47,949 bases of DNA from Deltaproteobacteria bacterium (lineage in GTDB: Bacteria > Desulfobacterota > Desulfarculia > Adiutricales > Adiutricaceae), in contig JAISWF010000275.1 of assembly GCA_031271165.1 (NCBI GenBank), positions 1 through 47,949 on the forward strand, in the 5' to 3' direction. Shown here in pieces: positions 18,741-40,006 of this stretch (its first letter is position 1; every line of letters starts with the position of its first letter). The translations under genes were made by a program, and so were the position numbers. The notes beneath the pieces are model-generated. The model saw nothing but the letters and a program-made list of their open reading frames with translations. It was not told where the DNA came from and searched no databases.

Positions 18741-20017
18741 CGCCGCACGAGGGCTGCTCTCCAAAGCGGACAACGAAATCTTCGGCGTGGTCAATACTGC
18801 CAAATCCGACCTGACTTTGTATAAAGACCCAGTGGTCGTTCAAAACATTTTTCAGTGCGATTTGTGCCTCAACGATTTATTGAATCATGAGGTTTACGTG
18901 AGCCTCTAGCTGTTCACCGCGTCAGCGGACATTGACCACCTGCAGCCCCTCCGGAGCATTTTGTGGGCCAACTCCTGGGTCGCCTGCCCAAAAAAATAGG
19001 ACTCGCCAAAGGGACCAGCCAGTCGGGTAATAATTTCGGGTGTTTTTGATACTCGGTGAGTTCGCCAGTTTAGGAAAGCTCTCCATAATTAAAGCGGGCC
19101 ATTGCCGTCATGGCCGAATGCGGGTTCAAAACTATTTAATCGTCCAGAACCACCAAGTAGCTCAACCAAGCCTACGGGCCGCTCTCATAGCCAACGGCCA
19201 TATTGGGACAGCTTACGCCCTCAACCTCCCAGCGACGTCGGAATAATAATCCCAAAAATGGCCGGCCTGGTGGTTGACATAATAGTTTCCCCTCCGGCGG
19301 GAACAAAACGATACATCCTGTTTAACCAGCATTTCCGAAACAACTCAAGGTTTGCTTACGCCAGACGAAGTATCCGATCACGTGTGGGTGGCCAACCCCT
19401 ATAATAGGGGGTCAGATTGCGAGATTGCCCCACCCATCTTTCTTGGTTCAAAGCTCACTGACAACCTCGATCATAACACCACTTGAGCTCAATATATACG
19501 TCCTCTAGGCCAGCACTGAGCTTGATTATGAGTATCCACTCTTAACTCGGCCTGGAAATATTTCCAAGCATACCTGGCTCAATAATACGATGGCTATCCA
19601 GGGAAAACGTCACTGCCTCTGCGGCCATAGTCAGAGGCCATATGTAGAAGCTTGGAGAATGCAAGTGTCTTAGAAGAATGCACAATAACGCCAACAGTTA
19701 ATAGCACTTGTTTTTCACTAAAGTTCGCATTTGGGTAGGCCATTAATCTTATAAGTCATCGAAAAACCCGGCCTTCCGTGAGGAGGACCGGGTTTTTTCA
19801 TGGAGGCTGATATAACCGTGGTAATCAGGAGACTGTCGTATTGTTTTGTAGTATTTACAATATCATAGCCTGTTTATGTAAAGGCTTAAACAATTGGGTT
19901 ACTAGTCGTTGACCTGGGAGCCGACTGGAATATTTTTCGTTCAATGGGCGGGCCAAATTCAACCAAGCCCGGGGGTTTTAATTTAGTGTTTTGGGAGACG
20001 GTCACTTGAAAAATGGG
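18741..20017. other. 1.3-kb stretch of scrambled, possibly once-coding sequence
   Basis: No intact gene. Plus-strand frames change every 100-200 bases and some pieces read like protein. One between about 19370 and 19440 (SDHVWVANPYN) vaguely recalls the SYMWVY region of IS66-type transposases, but the resemblance is weak. A clear terminator (19762-19798) stands here without an identifiable gene. Confidence 0.35.
19762..19798. terminator. orphan bidirectional rho-independent terminator
   Basis: AAAACCCGG-C-CTTCC-GTGA-GGAGG-A-CCGGGTTTT forms a long stem with one T-G pair, a GTGA loop and T runs on both strands. No intact gene ends nearby, so it marks a lost gene or a small RNA. Confidence 0.75.
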
Positions 20018-20855
20018 CTAGTCACCAGTGATTTCCGACGGTCTTTGCTCCTCTTTCATAAATTCCACCAGAACTTCCGTTCGCCCGCCGACCACCAAAG
20101 CGACCTTGTATATGTCATGGCCTTCTCCCCAATAGGCTTTGGTATAATTTTTATCATCAATCTGTTTGATGGCCTCCTTGGCCTTGGCCAACATCTTCCG
20201 CCGCAGGTCTTTTTTTGGCTCTTGGACCTTTATCTGATCGTCCGAGAAACTGTCTGGGCAGTATTTGATCTCAATGACAAAAATGGTCCCATCTGGCGCC
20301 GTAAAGCTGGCGTCAAGCCTACCGTCTCCTACCGAAACTCCCGTTTCAATTTTGACTTCGGCTAACAGCATGGCCGCTTGAAAGACCGTGTGATAATAGG
20401 CTTCAGCGGGCCCGTGGATAAGATATGGGAACTCGGCCAAAAAACTCCCGAAGGCGTTTTCAAAGCCCTCGGCATCTAATTTGATTAGCGAGATAACCAG
20501 GTGACAGACTTTTTTCCGGGTCTCCAATAGTTGTTTGATAGGTTCCATTGACAACAAAAGAGTGATAATGCCAATTTTTTGCCTCTAAAATAGTGATTTT
20601 CAAATTAAATTTATAAATTTCTTCCTATTTATCGACTTTATCCAGTGTTAGATAACTAGTTTGGAAAAGTACCGGTATTAGTTTTATGGCTTGGCCAAAT
20701 TCTATCGTATTAAGGAATTCAGTGATGGTTTCTTCAGTCTTAAAGCCTTTAAAGTCGATTGGGCCTCCCCACTGACCTTGGATTAGCCTTTTAAGTCTCT
20801 GTGGTTGGATAAAACCTTTTTGAAATTTATTATGATATTTAAAATAATAATAAAA
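20018..20855 (-). pseudogene. decayed AAA-ATPase / PD-(D/E)XK nuclease gene (DUF1703 type)
   Basis: The intact ORF 20018-20557 (179 aa) is the C-terminal nuclease-like domain: YYHTVFQAAMLL, then GDGRLDASFTAPDGTIFVIEIKY (the D...E-x-K core) and AKEAIKQIDDKNYTKAYWGEGHDIYKVALV. This is the PDDEXK_9/DUF1703 domain that normally follows an AAA-ATPase-like domain in proteins of about 500-580 residues common in gut bacteria. Upstream, in a shifted frame with an in-frame TAG, I can still read the end of that AAA part (DFKGFKTEETITEFL, IPVLFQTSYLTLDKV). The remaining N-terminal part is gone. The ORF-track Met start is therefore probably not a true start, although a short nuclease fragment could still be made. 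Confidence 0.75.
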
Positions 20856-21514
20856 AATTTAAAATTAATTTTTTTTGGTTGTATTATTAATTTGGATCAA
20901 TTAAAGCAGTCTTTTTTTGCTTGTAAGGCCGCCTTCAACCGGACAATTTGAATAACCTAGTCTTCGCCTGCCTTTCTTATGGTCGTCAGTTACTCCTTGG
21001 CCAGCTGGGCCATACCAGGCCATATCAGCCAAAAAAGTCACAATTGTGGATTGACAAGTTATGGAAACCGCCGCTCCCAGGCAAAATTCCAAGGTGTTGG
21101 GTTTAGCCACTAAAACAAGGCCAGCCCTATGGGCGCAAGTGTCATTTGAGCGTCCGGGAAAAGTTGCCCTGACCTTTGGTGGGGAGGCGTTGGTTGCCCC
21201 TGTGACACCGGAGCTGGCTTAATGACCAAAGCCCCTTAAACCTTAAGTCTTTCGCTGAAATCTTCTGACTACAGTCAGAAATGGATGGTATAGGCTTGCA
21301 AATTTCTTACAAGTGTTTGCCCTGTGTATTAATTCAATTTGATATCATCACTTCCGGGAGGTGCTGTCAAGCATATTTGAAGAATTTTCTCCTCCGTGAT
21401 GTCAAAGGTGATAATTCGGATTGTGGGCGAAAATCTGAAGGGCGCTCAGCATTTGAAGCCGAACGCCCTTTCTGCGCTGGTTCGAACTTTGTAAACACAT
21501 CAAGCCATCACCAA
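20856..21514. other. gene-free stretch between two broken genes
   Basis: Nothing convincing is coded here. It contains a perfect palindrome TTCTGACT-AC-AGTCAGAA at 21263-21280 and a hairpin AAGGGCG...CGCCCTT around 21438-21471. Confidence 0.4.
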
Positions 21515-21845
21515 TTAAAAAAACCTTAGCTCATAAAATCGCTCAAAAATGGTCTTACCATCAAGGAACGCAAGCGCCTTCATCTCATCGGGCGTTTTCG
21601 CTTCAAGATTCCCTGGACAGGCCAAATCGTACTTTTCTGGGAAGCCGCCATCTTCATAATACGGAGTTGGGCCTGCGATGATGAATTCTCAAGCTGTCAT
21701 CCCGTCTGCTGCCAAACCCTTCGATAAGGTAATCATGCCCATTATACTGGAAATAGAAGGTCTGCAAGCTCTCGATTATTTCAACAATAGCCTCGGGTTT
21801 CGTATCATCTGCCCAGTTTCTACGCATATCTACCGATTGTTCCAT
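21515..21845 (-). pseudogene. frameshifted small gene of unknown family
   Basis: The 5' part (ATG after AAGGTGAGG, a strong ribosome site) reads through KPEAIVEIIESLQTFYFQY and NGHDYLIEGFGSRRDDS. The rest continues in the +1 frame (GPTPYYEDGGFPEKYDLAC, then TPDEMKALAFLDGKTIFERF) to a TAA at 21515. Joined, they make a protein of about 108 residues with the pattern 'F-x-YNGHxYLI ... LDGKTI-x-E-x-F' that I associate with small uncharacterised proteins in gut bacteria. One indel near 21690 would explain the break. A sequencing error or programmed frameshift is also possible. Confidence 0.55.
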
Positions 21846-21895
21846 ATTTTCCTCACCTTCTCAATATAAGCCATCCCGTAATTAGTGGAGCTTCT

Positions 21896-22747
21896 TCAAA
21901 CTCCCTTCACCGCAATATCATCACTTCTGGCAAAGGATGATTCCATGATACTCCGAGGATAAATGAAAGGTTTGTTATCAGCGGTGGTTTTGGCCACTTC
22001 TTTACCGTAAAGTTCCTCCAGGATCGGCTCGGTAACCACCTCTCTGGCGTCCCCGGTGGCCAAAACCCGGCCGTCCTTTACAATGGTGGCCTCATCGCAA
22101 AACCACAAGATGTGGTTAGGGTCGTGACAGCATATAACGGCCCCATAACCGGTATTGACTACCTTGCGGATGGTCTGCCATATTCTTATCTGGTTGCGGA
22201 AGTCCAGTGAGGAGGTAGGCTCATCAAGAAATATCAGAGAAGTTTCCTGAGCCAGAGCCCTGGCCACCAGTACCATTTGCCTTTGGCCGCCAGAGAGGTG
22301 GTTGTAGTTCTCTGAAGCCAAGTGCGAAATCCCCACGTCCTGGAGTGAGCTGGCGACAACCAAGCGATCACGGGCGCTCAAGATGGGTTGTCGTCCCATG
22401 TGGGGTGTGCGGCCCATTGACACCATCTCCCTGACGGTAAAGGGGAAGGCTGGGCGGTGCTCTTGGGGGACGTATGCCAACTCGGACGCCAAGCGTTTGG
22501 TTCCAAAGCTTTCAATGGGTTTTCCCCCAAAAAAGATTTTTCCGGCCTGGACGGGTAAAAATCCTAGGCAGCACCTGAAAAGTGTACTCTTGCCGCTCCC
22601 GTTGGGACCAAGGAGCCCTATCAGTCGTCCGGCCTTAATGTCCAAAGAAATTTTGTGTAGGACTTGTTTGGTACCGTAAGAGAAATCCAAACCCTGGATT
22701 TTCATGATGACCTGGCCGCCAGGTTGCAGGGTGTTGTTAGTGGCCAT
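21896..22747 (-). CDS. metal-chelate ABC transporter, ATP-binding protein (FepC/BtuD type)
   Basis: The ATPase subunit has all motifs: Walker A LLGPNGSGKSTLF, Q loop YVPQEHRPAFPF, signature LSGGQRQMVLVARALAQ, Walker B LIFLDEPTSSLDF and switch His in CCHDPNH. It energises the FecCD-type permease encoded just upstream. The ORF track starts at 22813, inside the permease gene. ATG 22747, seven bases after GGGAGAG, is the likely start (283 aa) and overlaps the permease stop by 11 bases, so translation is coupled. It is the last gene of the TonB receptor / binding protein / permease / ATPase operon. The substrate is probably a ferric siderophore, heme or cobalamin; nothing in the sequence decides. 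Confidence 0.93.
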   Translation of the reverse strand: MATNNTLQPGGQVIMKIQGLDFSYGTKQVLHKISLDIKAGRLIGLLGPNGSGKSTLFRCCLGFLPVQAGKIFFGGKPIESFGTKRLASELAYVPQEHRPAFPFTVREMVSMGRTPHMGRQPILSARDRLVVASSLQDVGISHLASENYNHLSGGQRQMVLVARALAQETSLIFLDEPTSSLDFRNQIRIWQTIRKVVNTGYGAVICCHDPNHILWFCDEATIVKDGRVLATGDAREVVTEPILEELYGKEVAKTTADNKPFIYPRSIMESSFARSDDIAVKGV

Positions 22748-23756
22748 AGATGGCTCTCCCGCGTACTTTAAGGAGCCAGACCAGATATGGCGCCCCAATG
22801 ATGGAAGTGACAATACCCAAAGGTATCTCAGCTGAGGTCAATGTTCTGGCGATGGTGTCACAAACCAAAAGGTAGACCGCCCCCAACAAGGCTGAGCCCG
22901 GCACCAGCCAGCGGTGATCTGGTCCCAATATGAGCCTGGCTGCGTGGGGGATCATAAGGCCAACCCAGGCGATGATGCCACAGGTCGAAACGCAGAAGGC
23001 GGCGGCCAGCGTGGCCGCTATGACTATGACAAGGCGGCTGATTTGGGGGTTAAGGCCGAGACTTTTGGCCTCCTCGTCACCTAAGGTGAGGATGTTCAAC
23101 TTCCAGCCATTATAAATCAAAAAGGCCAGGACTGGGAGACCAACCGCCATGTTTAGCTGGACATCATCCCAGGTAGCGTAATATAGGCCCCCCATCATCC
23201 AAAAGGTTATCTCCCTTAACTGGCTGTCGGCGGCCAGGTACTTCATGATCCCCACCAGGGCCGAGAAAAGGGCCCCGATAACGATACCGGAGAGGACCAA
23301 GGCTATCGACGGGGTCTGACCCCGGACAGTGGCGAGAGAGTAGCTTATGAAGACAGCTGCCAGGGCCATCAGGAAGGCCGTTAACTGTCCCTGGGGGAAA
23401 ACCTGGGGGAAGACCATGGACAGAGCTGCACCAGCGGCGGCACCGGAGGAGACTCCCAGTATATACGGCTCCACCAGTGGGTTACGGAAGCAGCCCTGGT
23501 AGGCCGTCCCAGCCACGCCCAAAGACAGGCCGGCTGAAATGGCCAATAAGACTCTGGGGAGTCTTAGTCTCCAGATGATAATCTCGTGGATCTGACTGAA
23601 GTCGCCCATGTTGGTGCCGGTGAGTTTGAAATAAATAATCCCGAAAATCCCACGAAAGCTCACGTCATACTCCCCGGCTATCAAGCTTAGGACGGAGGCC
23701 CCCACCACAAGTATTAACAAAATGATTATGCCTGAAATCCGTCGCTTAAAACCCAT
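22737..23756 (-). CDS. metal-chelate ABC transporter, FecCD-family permease
   Basis: This is a polytopic inner-membrane permease of the FecCD/BtuC family with about ten helices. Family blocks include VLLAISAGLSLGVAGTAYQGCFRNPLVEPYILG near residue 90-120, the GSALLGAVYLLVCDTIAR segment and the C-terminal EIPLGIVTSIIGAPYLVWLL. The ORF opens at 23813, but MGFKRRISGI at 23756 places the first helix normally (339 aa) and overlaps the end of the substrate-binding-protein gene by 11 bases. A GGATGG sequence lies six bases upstream. It forms the translocation pore with the ATPase encoded next. Confidence 0.93.
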   Translation of the reverse strand: MGFKRRISGIIILLILVVGASVLSLIAGEYDVSFRGIFGIIYFKLTGTNMGDFSQIHEIIIWRLRLPRVLLAISAGLSLGVAGTAYQGCFRNPLVEPYILGVSSGAAAGAALSMVFPQVFPQGQLTAFLMALAAVFISYSLATVRGQTPSIALVLSGIVIGALFSALVGIMKYLAADSQLREITFWMMGGLYYATWDDVQLNMAVGLPVLAFLIYNGWKLNILTLGDEEAKSLGLNPQISRLVIVIAATLAAAFCVSTCGIIAWVGLMIPHAARLILGPDHRWLVPGSALLGAVYLLVCDTIARTLTSAEIPLGIVTSIIGAPYLVWLLKVRGRAIYGH

Positions 23757-24972
23757 TGTCGGCCATCCAATCAAGGATTTGGGTGCTCCTGAGACCCTTG
23801 GCGGTGGTTTCATCTATCCCGTAAACTTTTTGGTAAAACTCCAAGGCGTATTGGTAGACGTTGATATCTTTAAAGCGCTCGGGATAGGCCGCCTTGGCCG
23901 TGATGAGGATATCCAAGGGGTACTCAAGGCGGCGGGCACAGTTCATGGGGGTCCAGGGGAGAGCATAGACCCTTTTTTCCGAAATTGCCCTAAGTTCTCT
24001 TAAATCTTTAAAATAGGCGGCCTCATAGAGTTCCCTGGGGGGATGATAGCCGTTGTAGGTCGGAAGGATTATAACGTCGGGGTCAAGGACGTATATTTTC
24101 TCCAAATTTAGAGGCACTCCGTGCCCTTTGGACTGGAAGGCGTTTGTAGCGTTGGCCAGTTTTTCAATCACAAACGATTCCGGTGTGTCTATCCCGAAGG
24201 CCGCCCCCATGGCCCCACTTTTCTTTAAGTCGGGGTTAAGGCCCAGGTACAATACCTTTGACTTGTCTTTATCGGCAATTGTGCTGGTGCGGTCCCGGAC
24301 AAGATCCTCGGCCGATTTTACCAATGAATAAAGCTCAGAGGCCTTATTTTTCATGCCAAAAACATCTCCGACCACCTCGATCTCGTCTTTGAGCGTTTTT
24401 AACTGCGCCTCCCCAAAGTAACCGGGGGCGTAAATGACTACCAAGGGGATTCCAAGGCTGTTTATGGTATCAATGATTGATTGGGCTTTTTCGGTTTCAC
24501 TTTCTCCTACTGTACAATCGCCAATTCTTAAGATCACCAGTTCCGGGGCTGCGTTGGCCAACACCTCGAAGTTGATGACGTCGCCTTGGGGGGAGTTGAA
24601 GCAGGGTAGCTCGTTGAGGGTGGGGTGGAGGTATCTCATGGTGTTTAAGCCCTGATGACTGTATTGGACACCAGAATCAGTTTCAAAGTCGTAATTGTAG
24701 TCCCTTTTAAGGCTCCATGAGCCGATGGCCGAGACCTTGTCTATGACCCCCAGATAGGTCATGATGCCTTCAACCAGACCGTCATCAATGGTGGCGACTT
24801 TTTTGAGGTCAGCTGGGAATGTGACTTTCACACCCCTCATGTCGGAGATGGTCCTGGTAGGGCCGGTGTCGACCGCCAAGGCCGCAGGAGCAAAAAAAAG
24901 TGAACTTAAGCAAAATGAAGTAATAATAGTTATATAGAAGAAAGAATGTCTTATGGGTTTGGATTTTGGCAT
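23746..24972 (-). CDS. periplasmic substrate-binding protein of the metal-chelate ABC transporter
   Basis: The 408-residue protein has a signal peptide (FFYITIITSFCLSSLFFAPAALA, cleavage probably after ALA). It then has the class III binding-protein layout: RTISDMRGVKVTFPADLKKVATI at the start of the first lobe, a long bridging helix region (FGEAQLKTLKDEIEVVGDVFG) and LDPDVIILPTYNG in the second lobe. There is no lipobox Cys. It should receive the substrate from the TonB receptor and hand it to the permease. A ribosome site AAGGG precedes the ATG. Two hairpins lie between the receptor gene and this one, so its level may be set separately. Confidence 0.9.
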   Translation of the reverse strand: MPKSKPIRHSFFYITIITSFCLSSLFFAPAALAVDTGPTRTISDMRGVKVTFPADLKKVATIDDGLVEGIMTYLGVIDKVSAIGSWSLKRDYNYDFETDSGVQYSHQGLNTMRYLHPTLNELPCFNSPQGDVINFEVLANAAPELVILRIGDCTVGESETEKAQSIIDTINSLGIPLVVIYAPGYFGEAQLKTLKDEIEVVGDVFGMKNKASELYSLVKSAEDLVRDRTSTIADKDKSKVLYLGLNPDLKKSGAMGAAFGIDTPESFVIEKLANATNAFQSKGHGVPLNLEKIYVLDPDVIILPTYNGYHPPRELYEAAYFKDLRELRAISEKRVYALPWTPMNCARRLEYPLDILITAKAAYPERFKDINVYQYALEFYQKVYGIDETTAKGLRSTQILDWMADNGF

Positions 24973-34748: not shown

Positions 34749-35846
34749 TCAGGGCACTGGTATTGGCCGCACCTTAAGGCTTGGGGCCCGGGAGCGGACC
34801 GGTTCGGCTAAATAATCGATCGGATTTTCATCAAAGTCATAATACCAGCCATCCCAGCCAGGATCCAGAGTCCAGATGCGCTCGGCCAAGGGTGGGTGGG
34901 AGCTGAAAAAGGTATGTTTCTCCGGTTGAGCCAAAAAGAAGTGGTTAAGACCGGGGACAGAGCCGGATTTTATGAGGCTGCCCTGGCTGAGGCCGCCGAT
35001 TTTTTTCAGCACCCCGGCTAAAGAGGCTGAGTTTCGGGTAAACTGAACAGCAGAGGCATCGGCCAGCATCTCCCGGCGCCGACTAAAGGCGGCCTGAAGG
35101 AGGCGGCCCATAAAGGTGCCGAGGAACCCAAGGGCTACCATGGCCAAGACGACAAGAATGATTCGGCCGTTTCTAACTCTTAGCAGCAAATTTCGGCCGG
35201 TCGTTTGGAGCCAGAAAAGCCCGTGGAGCCAGCCGGCCATGATAGTAAAATGTCTCATGTCGCCGTTAAGGATGTGACTGAATTCGTGGGCGATCAGGGC
35301 CGACAATTCGTCGCGGTCCAGATACCTTAACGCTCCATAGCTTACCAAAACCGCCGCATCATCGGAGGTCAGGCCAGCCGCCATGGCGTTGATGCCGTTT
35401 TCGGCTGGCAGAATATAAAGATCAGGTTCGGAAATGGAGGCCGCCAAACTCATTTCAGCAATGATGTTGCGAAGTCTTTTTTCGCATTCCAGGCCCGCTC
35501 TGGTGCCCAGGATGCCGTCGGGGGACAAGGGGGTGCCTCCGAGTTTGGTGGCGATAAATGTTGACCCCCCCTGATGAATTTGACGGATCTGCAACAGTGA
35601 CAAGATGATGATGGCCAACAGAAAAAAACCGGTAATTATCAGGGCCCGCTTGTCGAATGACCAAATGGTTGCCTTGGGGTCAAGTGGGGTGCGAGAATCG
35701 TACAAGTAAATTTGCCAAAACCTGATAACCAAGTAGAACAAACAAGACCAAAGTATCATCACCATGATGAACGACAACCCGAAGAGAGTGCTAAAGCGCC
35801 GGCTCTCTTCTTGGGACTGAAAAAAATTAAAGGTATTTTGAGTCAT
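34749..35846 (-). CDS. membrane-bound M48-family zinc metallopeptidase
   Basis: The 365-residue peptidase has two N-terminal membrane segments (FIMVMILWSCLFYLVIRFW, ALIITGFFLLAIIILSLL) and the zinc motif HEFSHILNGD. A third zinc-ligand region (RRREMLADASAVQFT) and further hydrophobic stretches follow. It resembles HtpX/Oma1-type proteins that degrade or process membrane proteins under stress, but lacks features that would identify it as HtpX itself. It follows two LemA-family genes on the same strand (95-bp gap), a partnership known from several bacteria, which suggests a joint role at the inner membrane. Confidence 0.88.
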   Translation of the reverse strand: MTQNTFNFFQSQEESRRFSTLFGLSFIMVMILWSCLFYLVIRFWQIYLYDSRTPLDPKATIWSFDKRALIITGFFLLAIIILSLLQIRQIHQGGSTFIATKLGGTPLSPDGILGTRAGLECEKRLRNIIAEMSLAASISEPDLYILPAENGINAMAAGLTSDDAAVLVSYGALRYLDRDELSALIAHEFSHILNGDMRHFTIMAGWLHGLFWLQTTGRNLLLRVRNGRIILVVLAMVALGFLGTFMGRLLQAAFSRRREMLADASAVQFTRNSASLAGVLKKIGGLSQGSLIKSGSVPGLNHFFLAQPEKHTFFSSHPPLAERIWTLDPGWDGWYYDFDENPIDYLAEPVRSRAPSLKVRPIPVP

Positions 35847-35941
35847 GCTTTTCGTCCCGACTCGGCTGGACGCCTTAATTTTTAAGGTGTTCGGCTTTTG
35901 GTTTCACACCTGAAGCGTCGGTTAATATTCAATCCAAGGTT

Positions 35942-36559
35942 TCATGGATTAGCCGGAGGGGTTAGGGTAAAGCGAACCGGTTCGGCTTGGGTTGGGTCGG
36001 TCAGAACCCACAGGTTGGCCGGCAGAAAGCCAAAGAGGCCAGCAAAGAGCACTGACGGGAAAACCTCCCGAGCCTGGTTGTACTCCATGACCAGGTAGTT
36101 GTAAGAAGAGCGGGCCAAGCTGATTTGATCCTCGGTTTTGGTCAGTTCGTTCATTAGCTCACTTATGGTAGAGTCGGCTTTGAGATTGGGATAACTTTCC
36201 ACCACCACCATCAGTTGAGATAAAATTCCCGAAAGGCTACTGTCGGCCTCAGACAGTCTTTTGAGAGCGCCGGCCTGGGAGGGGTCACCAGAGGCACTCT
36301 GGCGGGCCTGAGCGGCGACGTTGCGGGCTTTGATGACCGCATCTAAGGTCTGGCTTTCATGGGCTAGATAAGCCCGGGAACTTTCAACTAAATTTGGGAT
36401 CAGATCGTAGCGGCGCTTGAGTTGGACATCGATCTGGGCAAAGGAGGCTTGAAAGGCATTTTTAGCTTTGACCAAGCGGTTATAGATGAGCGCCAGAAGC
36501 CCACCTATTATGCCCAAAATTACCACTAAAACCAGGAGAAAAAGTAAGACAGAGGTCAT
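35942..36559 (-). CDS. LemA-family membrane protein (copy 1)
   Basis: The 205-residue protein has one N-terminal membrane helix (VLLFLLVLVVILGIIGGLLALIY). A long helical-bundle domain follows with the LemA hallmark VQLKRRYDLIPNLVESSRAYLAHE, and then a segment ending VFPSVLFAGLFGF. The C-terminus is faintly Pro-rich. LemA proteins are anchored in the inner membrane with unclear function, commonly beside M48 peptidases or TPM-domain proteins. AAGGAA precedes the ATG. It shares about half of its residues by eye with the adjacent copy at 36708, so the pair probably arose by duplication. Confidence 0.9.
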   Translation of the reverse strand: MTSVLLFLLVLVVILGIIGGLLALIYNRLVKAKNAFQASFAQIDVQLKRRYDLIPNLVESSRAYLAHESQTLDAVIKARNVAAQARQSASGDPSQAGALKRLSEADSSLSGILSQLMVVVESYPNLKADSTISELMNELTKTEDQISLARSSYNYLVMEYNQAREVFPSVLFAGLFGFLPANLWVLTDPTQAEPVRFTLTPPANP

Positions 36560-36707
36560 AATAATTCCTTATTCTGGCATTTATTGGCGCACAAAAGGTT
36601 AAGAAAATAACCTTTAAGCAAAAGGTCAAATAAGCCAAGCGGCTTTCTGGCCAAAAGAGCCGACGACGCTGGGACTAAGGCCCTAATTAAAACCTTCCGA
36701 CGACAGC

Positions 36708-37331
36708 TCACCGGTCATCAAGTTCCAGCCTTTTGAGAGGGGTGGTGCTGGGGGTTATGGTTTCGGACGGGTTGATTTTCCACAGTCCCGCCGGCCCGAA
36801 CCCGAAAACAGAGGAAAATAGGACGGCCGGAAACATCTCTCTGGCTTGATTGTAGGACATGACTGCATCGTTATATGCCTGCCGGGCGAAGCTGATGCGG
36901 TTTTCGGTGCTCCGGAGATCTTCGGTCAAATTGGCGACCGTTCGGTCGGCTTTAAGATCGGGGTAACTTTCTATGACCGCCCTCAGTTGGGTCAAGGCCG
37001 AGGACAGGGCCGTATCAGCTTGACCCAAGAGCATTAGGGCTGGGACTTGGGTGGGATCCCCATTGGTGCTCAGGCGAGCTCCAGAAGCGGCATTACGGGC
37101 GTTGATTACCGTCTCCAAAGTAATTCGTTCATGGCCCAGGTAAGCTCTAGTACTTTCGACCAGACTTGGGATCAAATCATAACGCCGTTTAAGCTGGACA
37201 TCGATCTGGGAAAAAGCGTTGGTGTAACGATTTTTTAGGACCACTAAACGGTTATAAACAACCAGCAGAACAATAGCCAGAATAAACAGTATTAAAGCTA
37301 AAGTCAATAAAAAAAGTATTAAAGAGCCCAT
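36708..37331 (-). CDS. LemA-family membrane protein (copy 2)
   Basis: A second LemA paralogue, about 207 residues from the preferred ATG at 37331, where AGGTGAT lies upstream; the ORF track starts at GTG 37340. It has the N-terminal helix (LILFLLTLALILFILAIVLLVVY) and VQLKRRYDLIPSLVESTRAYLGHE, and ends MFPAVLFSSVFGF followed by a polar tail. Domain layout is the same as in copy 1, which starts 150 bp downstream. The two copies differ mainly in the C-terminal tail, so they may form a hetero-oligomer or have split functions. Confidence 0.9.
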   Translation of the reverse strand: MGSLILFLLTLALILFILAIVLLVVYNRLVVLKNRYTNAFSQIDVQLKRRYDLIPSLVESTRAYLGHERITLETVINARNAASGARLSTNGDPTQVPALMLLGQADTALSSALTQLRAVIESYPDLKADRTVANLTEDLRSTENRISFARQAYNDAVMSYNQAREMFPAVLFSSVFGFGPAGLWKINPSETITPSTTPLKRLELDDR

Positions 37332-37746
37332 GGAGATCACCTAAAAATTTATGATATTTTTTTGGAAATTACCAATTGATATATGTCAACATACAGAATT
37401 AAAAATTTACTTTTAGAATACAGTTATAATTAAGAAAATATTTGTTAGCTTGATGTTTAAGGTGATTAAAAGGCCAACGGCTGGCCGGCTGAACCGCCGT
37501 CAATTAAAAGGTCCTGGGTTTTCGGTTTAGACTAACGGATCCAGCTTAGCAACTGAGCGGAAAGCTAGTTAGAAAGCCAGTTAAAACCGGTCTCACCAGA
37601 AAGTCTGTTCGAAATGTTCTCTTGGCCAAGGTAATTTTGGCCATTAGCCACTAGGCTGATGGCTAATAGCTGCGGTCAACAAATTTGCTGCGGGAGACAT
37701 CAGCCCGGCCGGAACAGTGCGGGCCGATTAATTTCAAACACTACGG
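37332..37746. other. intergenic spacer upstream of the LemA genes
   Basis: About 400 bases, AT-rich near the LemA start. No ORF, terminator or repeat stands out; it must contain the LemA/M48 promoter. Confidence 0.5.
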
Positions 37747-38643
37747 TCAGGGGATATTGAGGTTGGCCCCGACCGGAGCGACTGTGGTCAAAAGGTGTGG
37801 GTTCATGGCCCGGAAGGTCTTGTAATCCACCTTGTATTGAGCGGCCAGACTTTTGATGTCGGCCGAAGCCTCTAGACGGATCCGTTTAGTCGACAGAATC
37901 GACCAGCCTTTGGTCAAGGTGTAGCCATACACATGAGGATTTGAGTAAAGAACTTTTCCGGCCAAGACTTGGTTGAAAAACTTTTCCGCTGATTCTTCGA
38001 CATAGAGGCGATAATAGTCTTTTTCCCCATCCGCTTGGGTCAGGGCGGTGAGCAGGGCTCTTTGGTCGATGAAGGCCGCCAAGGCCAAGGTCCAGGACCC
38101 CAATGCATTTTTTAGAGCGGCAATTTTGGCTGCTGCCGCCTGGGATGAGGCCACCGGGTCAAGGCGTTCGTCGATTCTATTATTGACGATTAGGCCGGCT
38201 TCAGTGGCCTCGTGAGCAGTCATCCGCCACATGCCCCGCCGGCCTGCGGCCAGGAAGAGAGGGTCGAGATTGGTCAGGGTCATGGGCAGGAACTTGAAAT
38301 CAGCCGGCACATTCTGAGATTCCAAGGCCGCCGTGATAACCGGCAGATATCGTTCTGACCGTCTTAATGTGAGCCAGACTCTGGATTTGGCTTCCGAGAT
38401 AAGTAAAAGCTCCTGATCGAGTCCCTCGTGGACCTCCAGCCGGGACATGGCCACAGGTTCGCCGGCAAAGTTTAGGGCCATGGCTGAAGCAAAGGCCGGA
38501 GAATACAACAGAGCGGGGATCAAAGAAAGGAGAAGAAACCGGAATATAGACGGTGAGCCGGTCCGACCGGCTGAACGGCGCCGGGCGGGCAAGTCCGCCC
38601 GGGAGCTAAAGCCGGGGATTTTTATGGTACGGCAAGCGATCAT
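37747..38643 (-). CDS. secreted lytic-transglycosylase-like protein lacking the catalytic Glu, with LysM-like end
   Basis: A 298-residue exported protein whose signal peptide (FRFLLLSLIPALLYSPAFASA) is preceded by a long basic leader. Residues 92-195 follow the MltD/SLT fold: RSERYLPVITAALESQNVPADFKFLPM, RGMWRMTAHEATEAGL, IDERLDPVASSQAAAAKI and LGSWTLALAAF. The catalytic block, usually LPxVESxFNP, reads LPMTLTNLDP, so Leu123 replaces the catalytic Glu, and the AAYNAG motif has become AAFIDQ. The last 43 residues (SADIKSLAAQYKVDYKTFRAMNPHL...) look like a LysM peptidoglycan-binding module. It is probably a non-cleaving glycan-binding protein. GAGAGG precedes the ATG. It starts 31 bp after the ankyrin gene. 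Confidence 0.8.
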   Translation of the reverse strand: MIACRTIKIPGFSSRADLPARRRSAGRTGSPSIFRFLLLSLIPALLYSPAFASAMALNFAGEPVAMSRLEVHEGLDQELLLISEAKSRVWLTLRRSERYLPVITAALESQNVPADFKFLPMTLTNLDPLFLAAGRRGMWRMTAHEATEAGLIVNNRIDERLDPVASSQAAAAKIAALKNALGSWTLALAAFIDQRALLTALTQADGEKDYYRLYVEESAEKFFNQVLAGKVLYSNPHVYGYTLTKGWSILSTKRIRLEASADIKSLAAQYKVDYKTFRAMNPHLLTTVAPVGANLNIP

Positions 38644-38674
38644 TGATACCTCTCAGGGTCATGATAAGCTGAAC

Positions 38675-40006
38675 TTATTGGCCTGGTTCAGGTTTAGGCT
38701 TCCTCGGTTCTACTCCGGTGAGTTTTGTCAAGGTTTCACTGACAGCTGGGTTACGGTTGTTGTTGACCAAGTCAAAGACATCACGGCCTTCTTTATCCTT
38801 AAGAAAAGGATCGGCCCCGCCGCCGAGGAGAGTTTTGATGATTAAGGGGTCATGGCTGGAAGCCGCCGCCATCATCAAAGCAGTTAAGCCTTTATCGGTT
38901 TGGGCATTGGGATCGGCCCCTTGGAGTAAAAGATATCGGGCGATGTTGGGCTGAGGATTGAGGGCGGCCGCCATAATTGGGGTTAGCAACATCGTATTGG
39001 TCTGGTTGACGTCGAATCCGAGGACCAAAATCCGCCGGATGTTTTCGACGTTGGGGGCGCTTAGAGACGCCGAAAACAAGATACTGGACTCAATTTCATC
39101 GACGGCCTTGGTATTGGCCCCAGCCCCAATAAATGCGGTGAGCACTTCAGGATTAGAATTGGAGGCGGCCCCAAAAATAGGCGTTTCCTGCCGATTGTTT
39201 CTGGCCTCCAGGTTAGCTCCGGCCCGGATCAGAGTCAAAGCCACCTCCGGATTGGTAGAAAAACGGGCGGCGGCAAAAAGGGCCGTTTCCCCGTCAGAGT
39301 TGGCGGCATCAATGTTGGCCCCCAGTTCGATCAGGGCCTTGAGGTTGGGAATGTTTCCGGTCTGAGCGGCATTGAGTAGCGGCCGGAAGCCCTGACCATC
39401 CACCGACTCAATGTCAGCTCCCAATTTGATCAGCGCTTCCAAGACTTTGGGATTGGTATTGTTGGTAGCCGCCTGGTGGATGGCGGTTACCCCGTGAAAA
39501 GTCTGATAGTTAAGGGGTATCTTGGGAGCTAGAACATTTACTACGGCCGGTTCGGGATTAAAGGAGGCGGCAAACATCAGAGCGTTCAGACCATAGTGAT
39601 TTTCAACTGCTTCAGGATCGGCCCCGGCTTTAAGGAGAGCCTCAATGACTTTGGGATCCGGGTTAGAGCCGCTGGCCCGCATCAGAGGCGTCAGGCCGTC
39701 GGGAGTGCGCAGGTTGAGATCGGCCCCTTCTTGGATAGCTTTTTCAACATCCTGGGCCGACCCTTTAGCGCAGGTTTCCAGCCAGGCTTGTTCTTGGGGG
39801 CTGAGGCCAGCAGCGTCTGTTTCTTTGGCCGCCGGGCCAAGTTCCGAAGCCGCCGCTTCCCCGGCATCATTAGGGCTGGTTGGGGCTGGCTCAGCTGCCG
39901 CTGGGGGGTTGGCGGCTTCGGCCGGTGTCTGAGCCAAGCTAGGGTAACAAAAGGCTAATGTCAAACAAAAGAAGCTAATGGTCAGACCGACGGAGATATA
40001 TTTCAT
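38675..40006 (-). CDS. exported ankyrin-repeat protein
   Basis: The protein has a signal peptide (VGLTISFFCLTLAFCYPSLAQ), an Ala/Pro-rich spacer (about 25-70) and then about ten ankyrin repeats of 33-35 residues to the C-terminus. Repeats follow the pattern G-x-TPLM-x-A...NP-x-x-VxxALLKAGADPEA, with an extra NPxP insert in the first loop of most units. A Pro/Lys-rich tail ends it. Being exported, it probably works in the periplasm as a binding scaffold. The ORF starts at TTG 40009; ATG 40006 follows GAGG by ten bases. The next gene, 31 bp downstream, encodes the pseudo-transglycosylase, and the two may form a periplasmic pair. Confidence 0.9.
   Translation of the reverse strand: MKYISVGLTISFFCLTLAFCYPSLAQTPAEAANPPAAAEPAPTSPNDAGEAAASELGPAAKETDAAGLSPQEQAWLETCAKGSAQDVEKAIQEGADLNLRTPDGLTPLMRASGSNPDPKVIEALLKAGADPEAVENHYGLNALMFAASFNPEPAVVNVLAPKIPLNYQTFHGVTAIHQAATNNTNPKVLEALIKLGADIESVDGQGFRPLLNAAQTGNIPNLKALIELGANIDAANSDGETALFAAARFSTNPEVALTLIRAGANLEARNNRQETPIFGAASNSNPEVLTAFIGAGANTKAVDEIESSILFSASLSAPNVENIRRILVLGFDVNQTNTMLLTPIMAAALNPQPNIARYLLLQGADPNAQTDKGLTALMMAAASSHDPLIIKTLLGGGADPFLKDKEGRDVFDLVNNNRNPAVSETLTKLTGVEPRKPKPEPGQ

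Follow-up and report, generated by a model that had tools for sequence, protein, structure and literature searches.

Why would a bacterium retain a lytic transglycosylase-like protein that appears to have lost its active site, and does the exported ankyrin-repeat protein encoded next to it have a part in the answer? This question is raised by two neighboring genes, referred to here as ANK and pSLT, in a 47,949-nucleotide stretch of DNA (the window) from a member of the Adiutricaceae. This bacterial family of the arthropod gut comprises relatives of Candidatus Adiutrix.

ANK is matched by Pfam Ank_2 with E=1e-60 and shows the tandem helix-loop-helix repeat of ~33 residues found in ankyrin proteins. 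In the list of open reading frames, the gene starts at a TTG located one codon before the ATG used here. The N-terminus is signal-peptide-like and is followed by a disordered Pro/Ala linker, and the AlphaFold2 (AF2) model consists of a short helix, disorder up to residue 64 and then the solenoid. A periplasmic location is predicted from these features. Based on the number of modeled helix pairs, the original prediction of about ten repeats was right. In most repeats, the loop between the helices has an N-P-x-P or N-P-like motif (for example SNPDPKVI, FNPEPAVV and NNTNPKVL) which recurs along the array and in orthologs. ANK orthologs were detected in 32 of 37 Adiutricaceae genomes at E<1e-54.

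Table 1 Features of the ANK and pSLT genes, with coordinates in the window.
Feature	Position	Strand	Basis
ANK, predicted exported ankyrin-repeat protein, 443 aa from ATG at 40006	38675..40006	-	ORF, Pfam, AF2, orthologs
ANK probable signal peptide, residues 1-26, ends ...PSLAQ	39929..40006	-	Sequence reading; AF2 helix 7-18
ANK ankyrin solenoid, residues 70-430, 11 helix pairs	38717..39799	-	AF2 model, pLDDT ~98
Spacer, 31 bp, ANK stop to pSLT start	38644..38674	-	ORF coordinates; terminator scan
pSLT, MltD-fold pseudo-lytic transglycosylase, predicted exported, 298 aa	37747..38643	-	ORF, Pfam SLT, AF2/Foldseek, 30 orthologs
pSLT probable signal peptide, ~residues 1-52, ends ...PAFASA	38488..38643	-	Sequence reading, low-pLDDT N-terminus, lipobox scan
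pSLT codon 123 (Leu), MltD catalytic Glu position	38275..38277	-	Alignment with P. aeruginosa MltD and 20 catalytic homologs
pSLT codon 140 (Arg), invariant, replaces Gln of GLWQ	38224..38226	-	Same alignment
pSLT codons 191-192 (Phe-Ile), replace Tyr-Asn of AAYNAG	38068..38073	-	Same alignment
pSLT LysM-like C-terminal region, residues 253-298, strand-helix-helix-strand	37750..37887	-	AF2 secondary structure, sub-threshold Pfam LysM

The second protein, pSLT, is related to MltD in sequence and fold. Pfam SLT scores 26.1 bits against a cutoff of 21.3, covering only profile positions 35-94 of 117, and the NCBIfam MltD-like model matches at 2.6e-10, yet far under its bit-score cutoff. Pseudomonas aeruginosa MltD is the sole sequence relative in the PDB (E 4e-10). 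It is also the top Foldseek match (8rhf/8rhe; E ~1e-11 to 1e-12, TM ~0.68, ~233 columns) of an AlphaFold2 model which was built from 26 orthologs and has a core pLDDT of ~97, so that the SLT fold is kept, as first proposed. Regarding the C-terminus, the predicted LysM-like end is suggested by the strand-helix-helix-strand order of the model, but Pfam LysM does not recognize it (11.9 bits, cutoff 20.9); the region is nonetheless well conserved among orthologs (DYKTFRDMNPH). pSLT is predicted to be exported to the periplasm. A pattern scan found no lipobox at the end of its signal peptide, which is thus not of the lipoprotein type; the pattern occurs in 4 of 30 pSLT orthologs, one of these being a spurious N-terminal match in the window protein itself.

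The two genes lie on the same strand with a gap of exactly the 31 bp first noted, and no terminator-like site was found in this spacer, with the promoter and terminator scan yielding no more than expected by chance. ANK is located directly upstream of pSLT on the same strand in 20 of 28 database loci, with gaps that range from a -4 bp overlap (three loci) to 564 bp, most of them being 0-150 bp. The pair is adjacent in most Adiutricaceae genera, so the outcome that would have told against the original prediction, a pair conserved nowhere else, did not occur. ANK and pSLT are probably co-transcribed where they form their usual pair. They are split in the Candidatus Adiutrix lineage and in part of genus g8, and both usually persist once separated (as in Smac51 (G026), G006, G013, G034, G020, G028 and G032); in Smac51 they are found at 0.39 and 4.42 Mb. 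The association is therefore a frequent and not an obligatory neighborhood. In genus g8, the genes are parted on the same strand by ORFs spanning ~4 and 16 kb (G032 C205 and G028 C162; loci L142 and L141). One genome, G022, encodes pSLT with ANK undetected. An apparent correlated loss of ANK and pSLT in part of the Adiutricaceae genomes was rejected as a signal: these double absences are uninformative because the flanking genes (GlgC block, HdrA) are also missing from the assemblies or lie at contig edges.

Adjacency has to be read against its surroundings. The pair is part of a conserved block, MgtE-PhoH-PgpH-YbeY-GlgC-ANK-pSLT-(LemA-LemA-M48)-PolA-PBP1A, and because this wider gene order is itself conserved, ANK-pSLT adjacency constitutes weak to moderate evidence of a functional link. 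The strongest alternative to such a link is that the two genes are neighbors through inherited order alone, with pSLT having a partner of its own (the active MltD paralog, PBP1A, LemA or M48 would be examples) and ANK being unrelated. Block conservation and the separation of the pair in several genomes are in line with this explanation, as is branch-rate covariation, which was run on 22 genomes and 15 gene pairs and gave no specific signal for pSLT-ANK (rho 0.30, p 0.056, rank 4 of 15, non-discriminating), the top-ranked pair being pSLT with PolA. However, gaps are very short or overlapping in several lineages, both proteins are predicted to be exported, and both form family-specific ortholog groups of equal breadth. 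We consider inherited order as the whole explanation somewhat improbable, albeit to be taken seriously.

Two further features of the window were observed. The segment downstream of pSLT (34749-37340) encodes two tandem LemA proteins and an M48 (HtpX-like) protease, and this LemA/M48 block varies in relatives, with LemA absent or single and up to three M48 matches in locus L073. At ~20000-24000, cumulative GC skew reaches a minimum near 22 kb, possibly marking a replication landmark; the sign of the skew flips there though most genes on either side are on the minus strand.

To analyze the loss of the active site, 30 pSLT orthologs were aligned with MltD of P. aeruginosa and with 20 catalytic homologs encoded in the same and in related genomes. 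This profile alignment with MltD, which had been suggested as a check of the original prediction, confirms that the catalytic Glu is missing. The ES-motif Glu is absent in all 29 alignable pSLT proteins (of 30), being replaced by Leu (17), Val (4), Met (4) or Ile (4), and the loss is thus conserved across orthologs. At the Gln of GLWQ, 30/30 pSLT proteins carry Arg, and 20/20 catalytic homologs keep Gln. Loss of the AAYNAG motif, likewise foreseen, is borne out: its Asn, present in 20/20 catalytic homologs, is found in 0/30 pSLT proteins (hydrophobic in 30/30), and its Tyr is mostly Phe. pSLT therefore carries neither the ES-motif Glu nor GLWQ nor AAYN(A/C/S)G of MltD/SLT enzymes, while the catalytic homologs retain the Glu, Ser, Gln, Tyr, Asn, Gly, Glu and Thr positions in 20/20 cases. 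Overall, the polar active-site positions (Glu, Ser, Gln, Asn and mostly Tyr) have been changed, largely to hydrophobic residues, with the addition of an Arg. Judged by these residues, pSLT is a true pseudoenzyme and predicted to be non-catalytic.

Could pSLT still bind what it no longer cuts? It was originally suggested that a non-catalytic glycan-binding protein and a repeat scaffold form a cell-wall anchoring or sensing system; pSLT would bind glycan strands, using its former groove, the LysM-like end or both, and thereby anchor or localize the ankyrin scaffold at the wall. The entire MltD fold including the LysM-like end has been preserved, this end is well conserved across orthologs, and both proteins look exported. 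However, all polar active-site positions have been replaced, mostly by hydrophobic residues plus the invariant Arg, and glycan binding in the manner of MltD is therefore doubtful; the LysM match, moreover, stays under the Pfam cutoff. Anchoring would be expected chiefly via the LysM-like end, and the explanation as a whole appears rather unlikely.

Far less likely is that pSLT is still an enzyme relying on a different catalytic residue or chemistry. Its strong conservation would fit such a role, as would E145, a pSLT-specific acidic residue located five residues after R140 and the most obvious new candidate for a relocated catalytic acid. E145 was ruled out, being present in only 26/30 pSLT proteins and missing in the other 4. 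The remaining strictly conserved Asp and Glu residues are either common to active MltD homologs or, as with D76 and E84, precede the core in the N-terminal helices, and the neighboring Tyr, Asn, Ser and Thr were lost together. A catalytic Glu elsewhere in the fold, which would have contradicted the initial proposal, did not emerge, with no substitute acid being found. Newly conserved positions specific to pSLT are instead (near-)invariant Q77, L79, S83, E84, A85 and R88 in the N-terminal helices, together with R140, E145, D162 and positions around V226/G229. We infer that this cluster is compatible with a new protein-binding face.

pSLT is found in 30 of 37 Adiutricaceae genomes. In an order-wide search, its profile scored 380-430 bits inside the Adiutricaceae only, with all other matches, catalytic paralogs among them, at or below 194 bits. 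No further pSLT is present among 52 more distant database matches because Glu is kept wherever the Glu site aligns. A 90-codon fragment in G022 (G022:C249:3894-4160; 115 bits to the pSLT profile, 39% identity) resembles the C-terminal part of a pSLT that would be the second in this genome. In the tree, all 30 pSLT proteins form one clade with 100/100 support and a stem of 2.15 changes per column, although the catalytic group sister to it is not firmly resolved. The computation shows a single origin of pSLT, with the active site lost once. Closer pSLT pairs have dN/dS values of 0.16-0.29, and pSLT is under purifying selection. It is extremely improbable that pSLT represents a pseudogene in decay or an artefact of misassembly, as could be suspected given that most genomes are metagenome bins, and conservation and dN/dS rule out the pseudogene: the core is open and aligned in 30 genomes, dN/dS is well below 1, and the gene is present in the Smac51 chromosome.

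The genome containing the window also encodes a catalytic MltD paralog, on contig C121, in which LAVAES and AAYNAG are present; pSLT, as far as these motifs tell, coexists with an active-looking MltD paralog. The N-terminus of the C121 protein is lipobox-like (judged partly by eye), as in many paralogs of the family and unlike most pSLT proteins. Together, residue loss across orthologs, purifying selection and retention of an active-looking relative mark pSLT as a conserved pseudoenzyme. An MltD-type lytic transglycosylase was probably duplicated no later than the base of the Adiutricaceae. In one duplicate, the active site was lost a single time, and this copy has been maintained as a presumably non-catalytic protein; the other duplicate was retained as the active, mostly lipoprotein-like MltD paralog. 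As regards genomic location, pSLT is found near PBP1A in the window, whereas in Smac51 it is the active paralog that lies ~2.4 kb downstream of PBP1A on the same strand (C1:1924593-1930168, locus L313).

We favor, largely by analogy, the view that pSLT, without catalysis of its own and together with the ankyrin scaffold, regulates peptidoglycan cleavage or serves as an adaptor in it. The ANK solenoid may be a periplasmic protein-binding scaffold that recognizes MltD-type folds, and pSLT may be its dedicated non-cutting partner, acting as an adaptor, decoy or anti-inhibitor. Together, they would set the place or time of peptidoglycan cleavage by the active MltD paralog. Both the ANK-pSLT interaction and the control of the active paralog are inferred from comparison with known systems, and this reading is put forward tentatively as the leading one, at somewhat less than even chances. 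A more specific version, in which pSLT would be a decoy or allosteric partner of the active paralog and the periplasmic ankyrin solenoid the switch or scaffold of a previously undescribed control module, is more speculative and, as it stands, unlikely.

Several known systems offer points of comparison. MltD itself (family 1D; P. aeruginosa 8rhe/8rhf, E. coli) resembles pSLT in fold and perhaps in the LysM-like C-terminal region; in contrast, pSLT is without key active-site residues, confined to Adiutricaceae, ankyrin-paired and, in most orthologs, without a lipobox. AnkB, a periplasmic ankyrin protein of P. aeruginosa linked to the catalase KatB, is like ANK an exported bacterial ankyrin-repeat protein; unlike in AnkB-KatB, no catalase was recognized among the genes neighboring ANK. 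NlpI is a TPR-type repeat protein. In E. coli, Prc degrades MltD with the help of NlpI as adaptor, while NlpI-MltD binding was undetected in the same study (PMC10931528). This is likewise an adaptor system limiting MltD, as proposed for ANK/pSLT, but one that works by proteolysis and has no pseudo-MltD. In P. aeruginosa, the Sel1-repeat protein IltA binds the catalytic domain of MltF and inhibits it, with LiiA serving as anti-inhibitor (PMC10746161). A repeat protein controlling a lytic transglycosylase and a third protein relieving that control constitute a functional analogy to ANK/pSLT; however, IltA has Sel1 and not ankyrin repeats, the IltA and LiiA genes are unlinked (PMC10746161), and LiiA, unlike pSLT, is not described as a degenerate transglycosylase. 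The Neisseria meningitidis transglycosylase LtgA affects a partner enzyme (PMC7083599). The inactive LytM factors EnvC, NlpD, ActS and DipM (PMC10336132, PMC8360153) are degenerate hydrolases kept as regulators, again a functional analogy to pSLT; DipM binds autolysins, transglycosylases among them, and has a stimulating effect on SdpA (PMC10336132). They have the LytM peptidase fold, whereas pSLT has the SLT fold, and Pfam found no LytM/M23 domain in pSLT or ANK, neither of which is thus an inactive LytM factor.

Our literature search found no paper describing a pseudoenzyme lytic transglycosylase, and the ANK/pSLT pair is real, conserved and apparently undescribed in the literature searched. 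These comparisons suggest that pSLT belongs with degenerate cell-wall hydrolases kept as non-enzymatic factors and may regulate or organize work on the wall rather than cut it. The duplication that separated pSLT from MltD is clean, so that lost and newly conserved residues can be read directly, and the exported ankyrin solenoid is an unusual partner. Cell-wall hydrolases are known to be regulated by degenerate LytM peptidases; a lytic transglycosylase that is degenerate, conserved and retained together with an active-looking paralog would be the glycan-cleaving counterpart of these peptidases.
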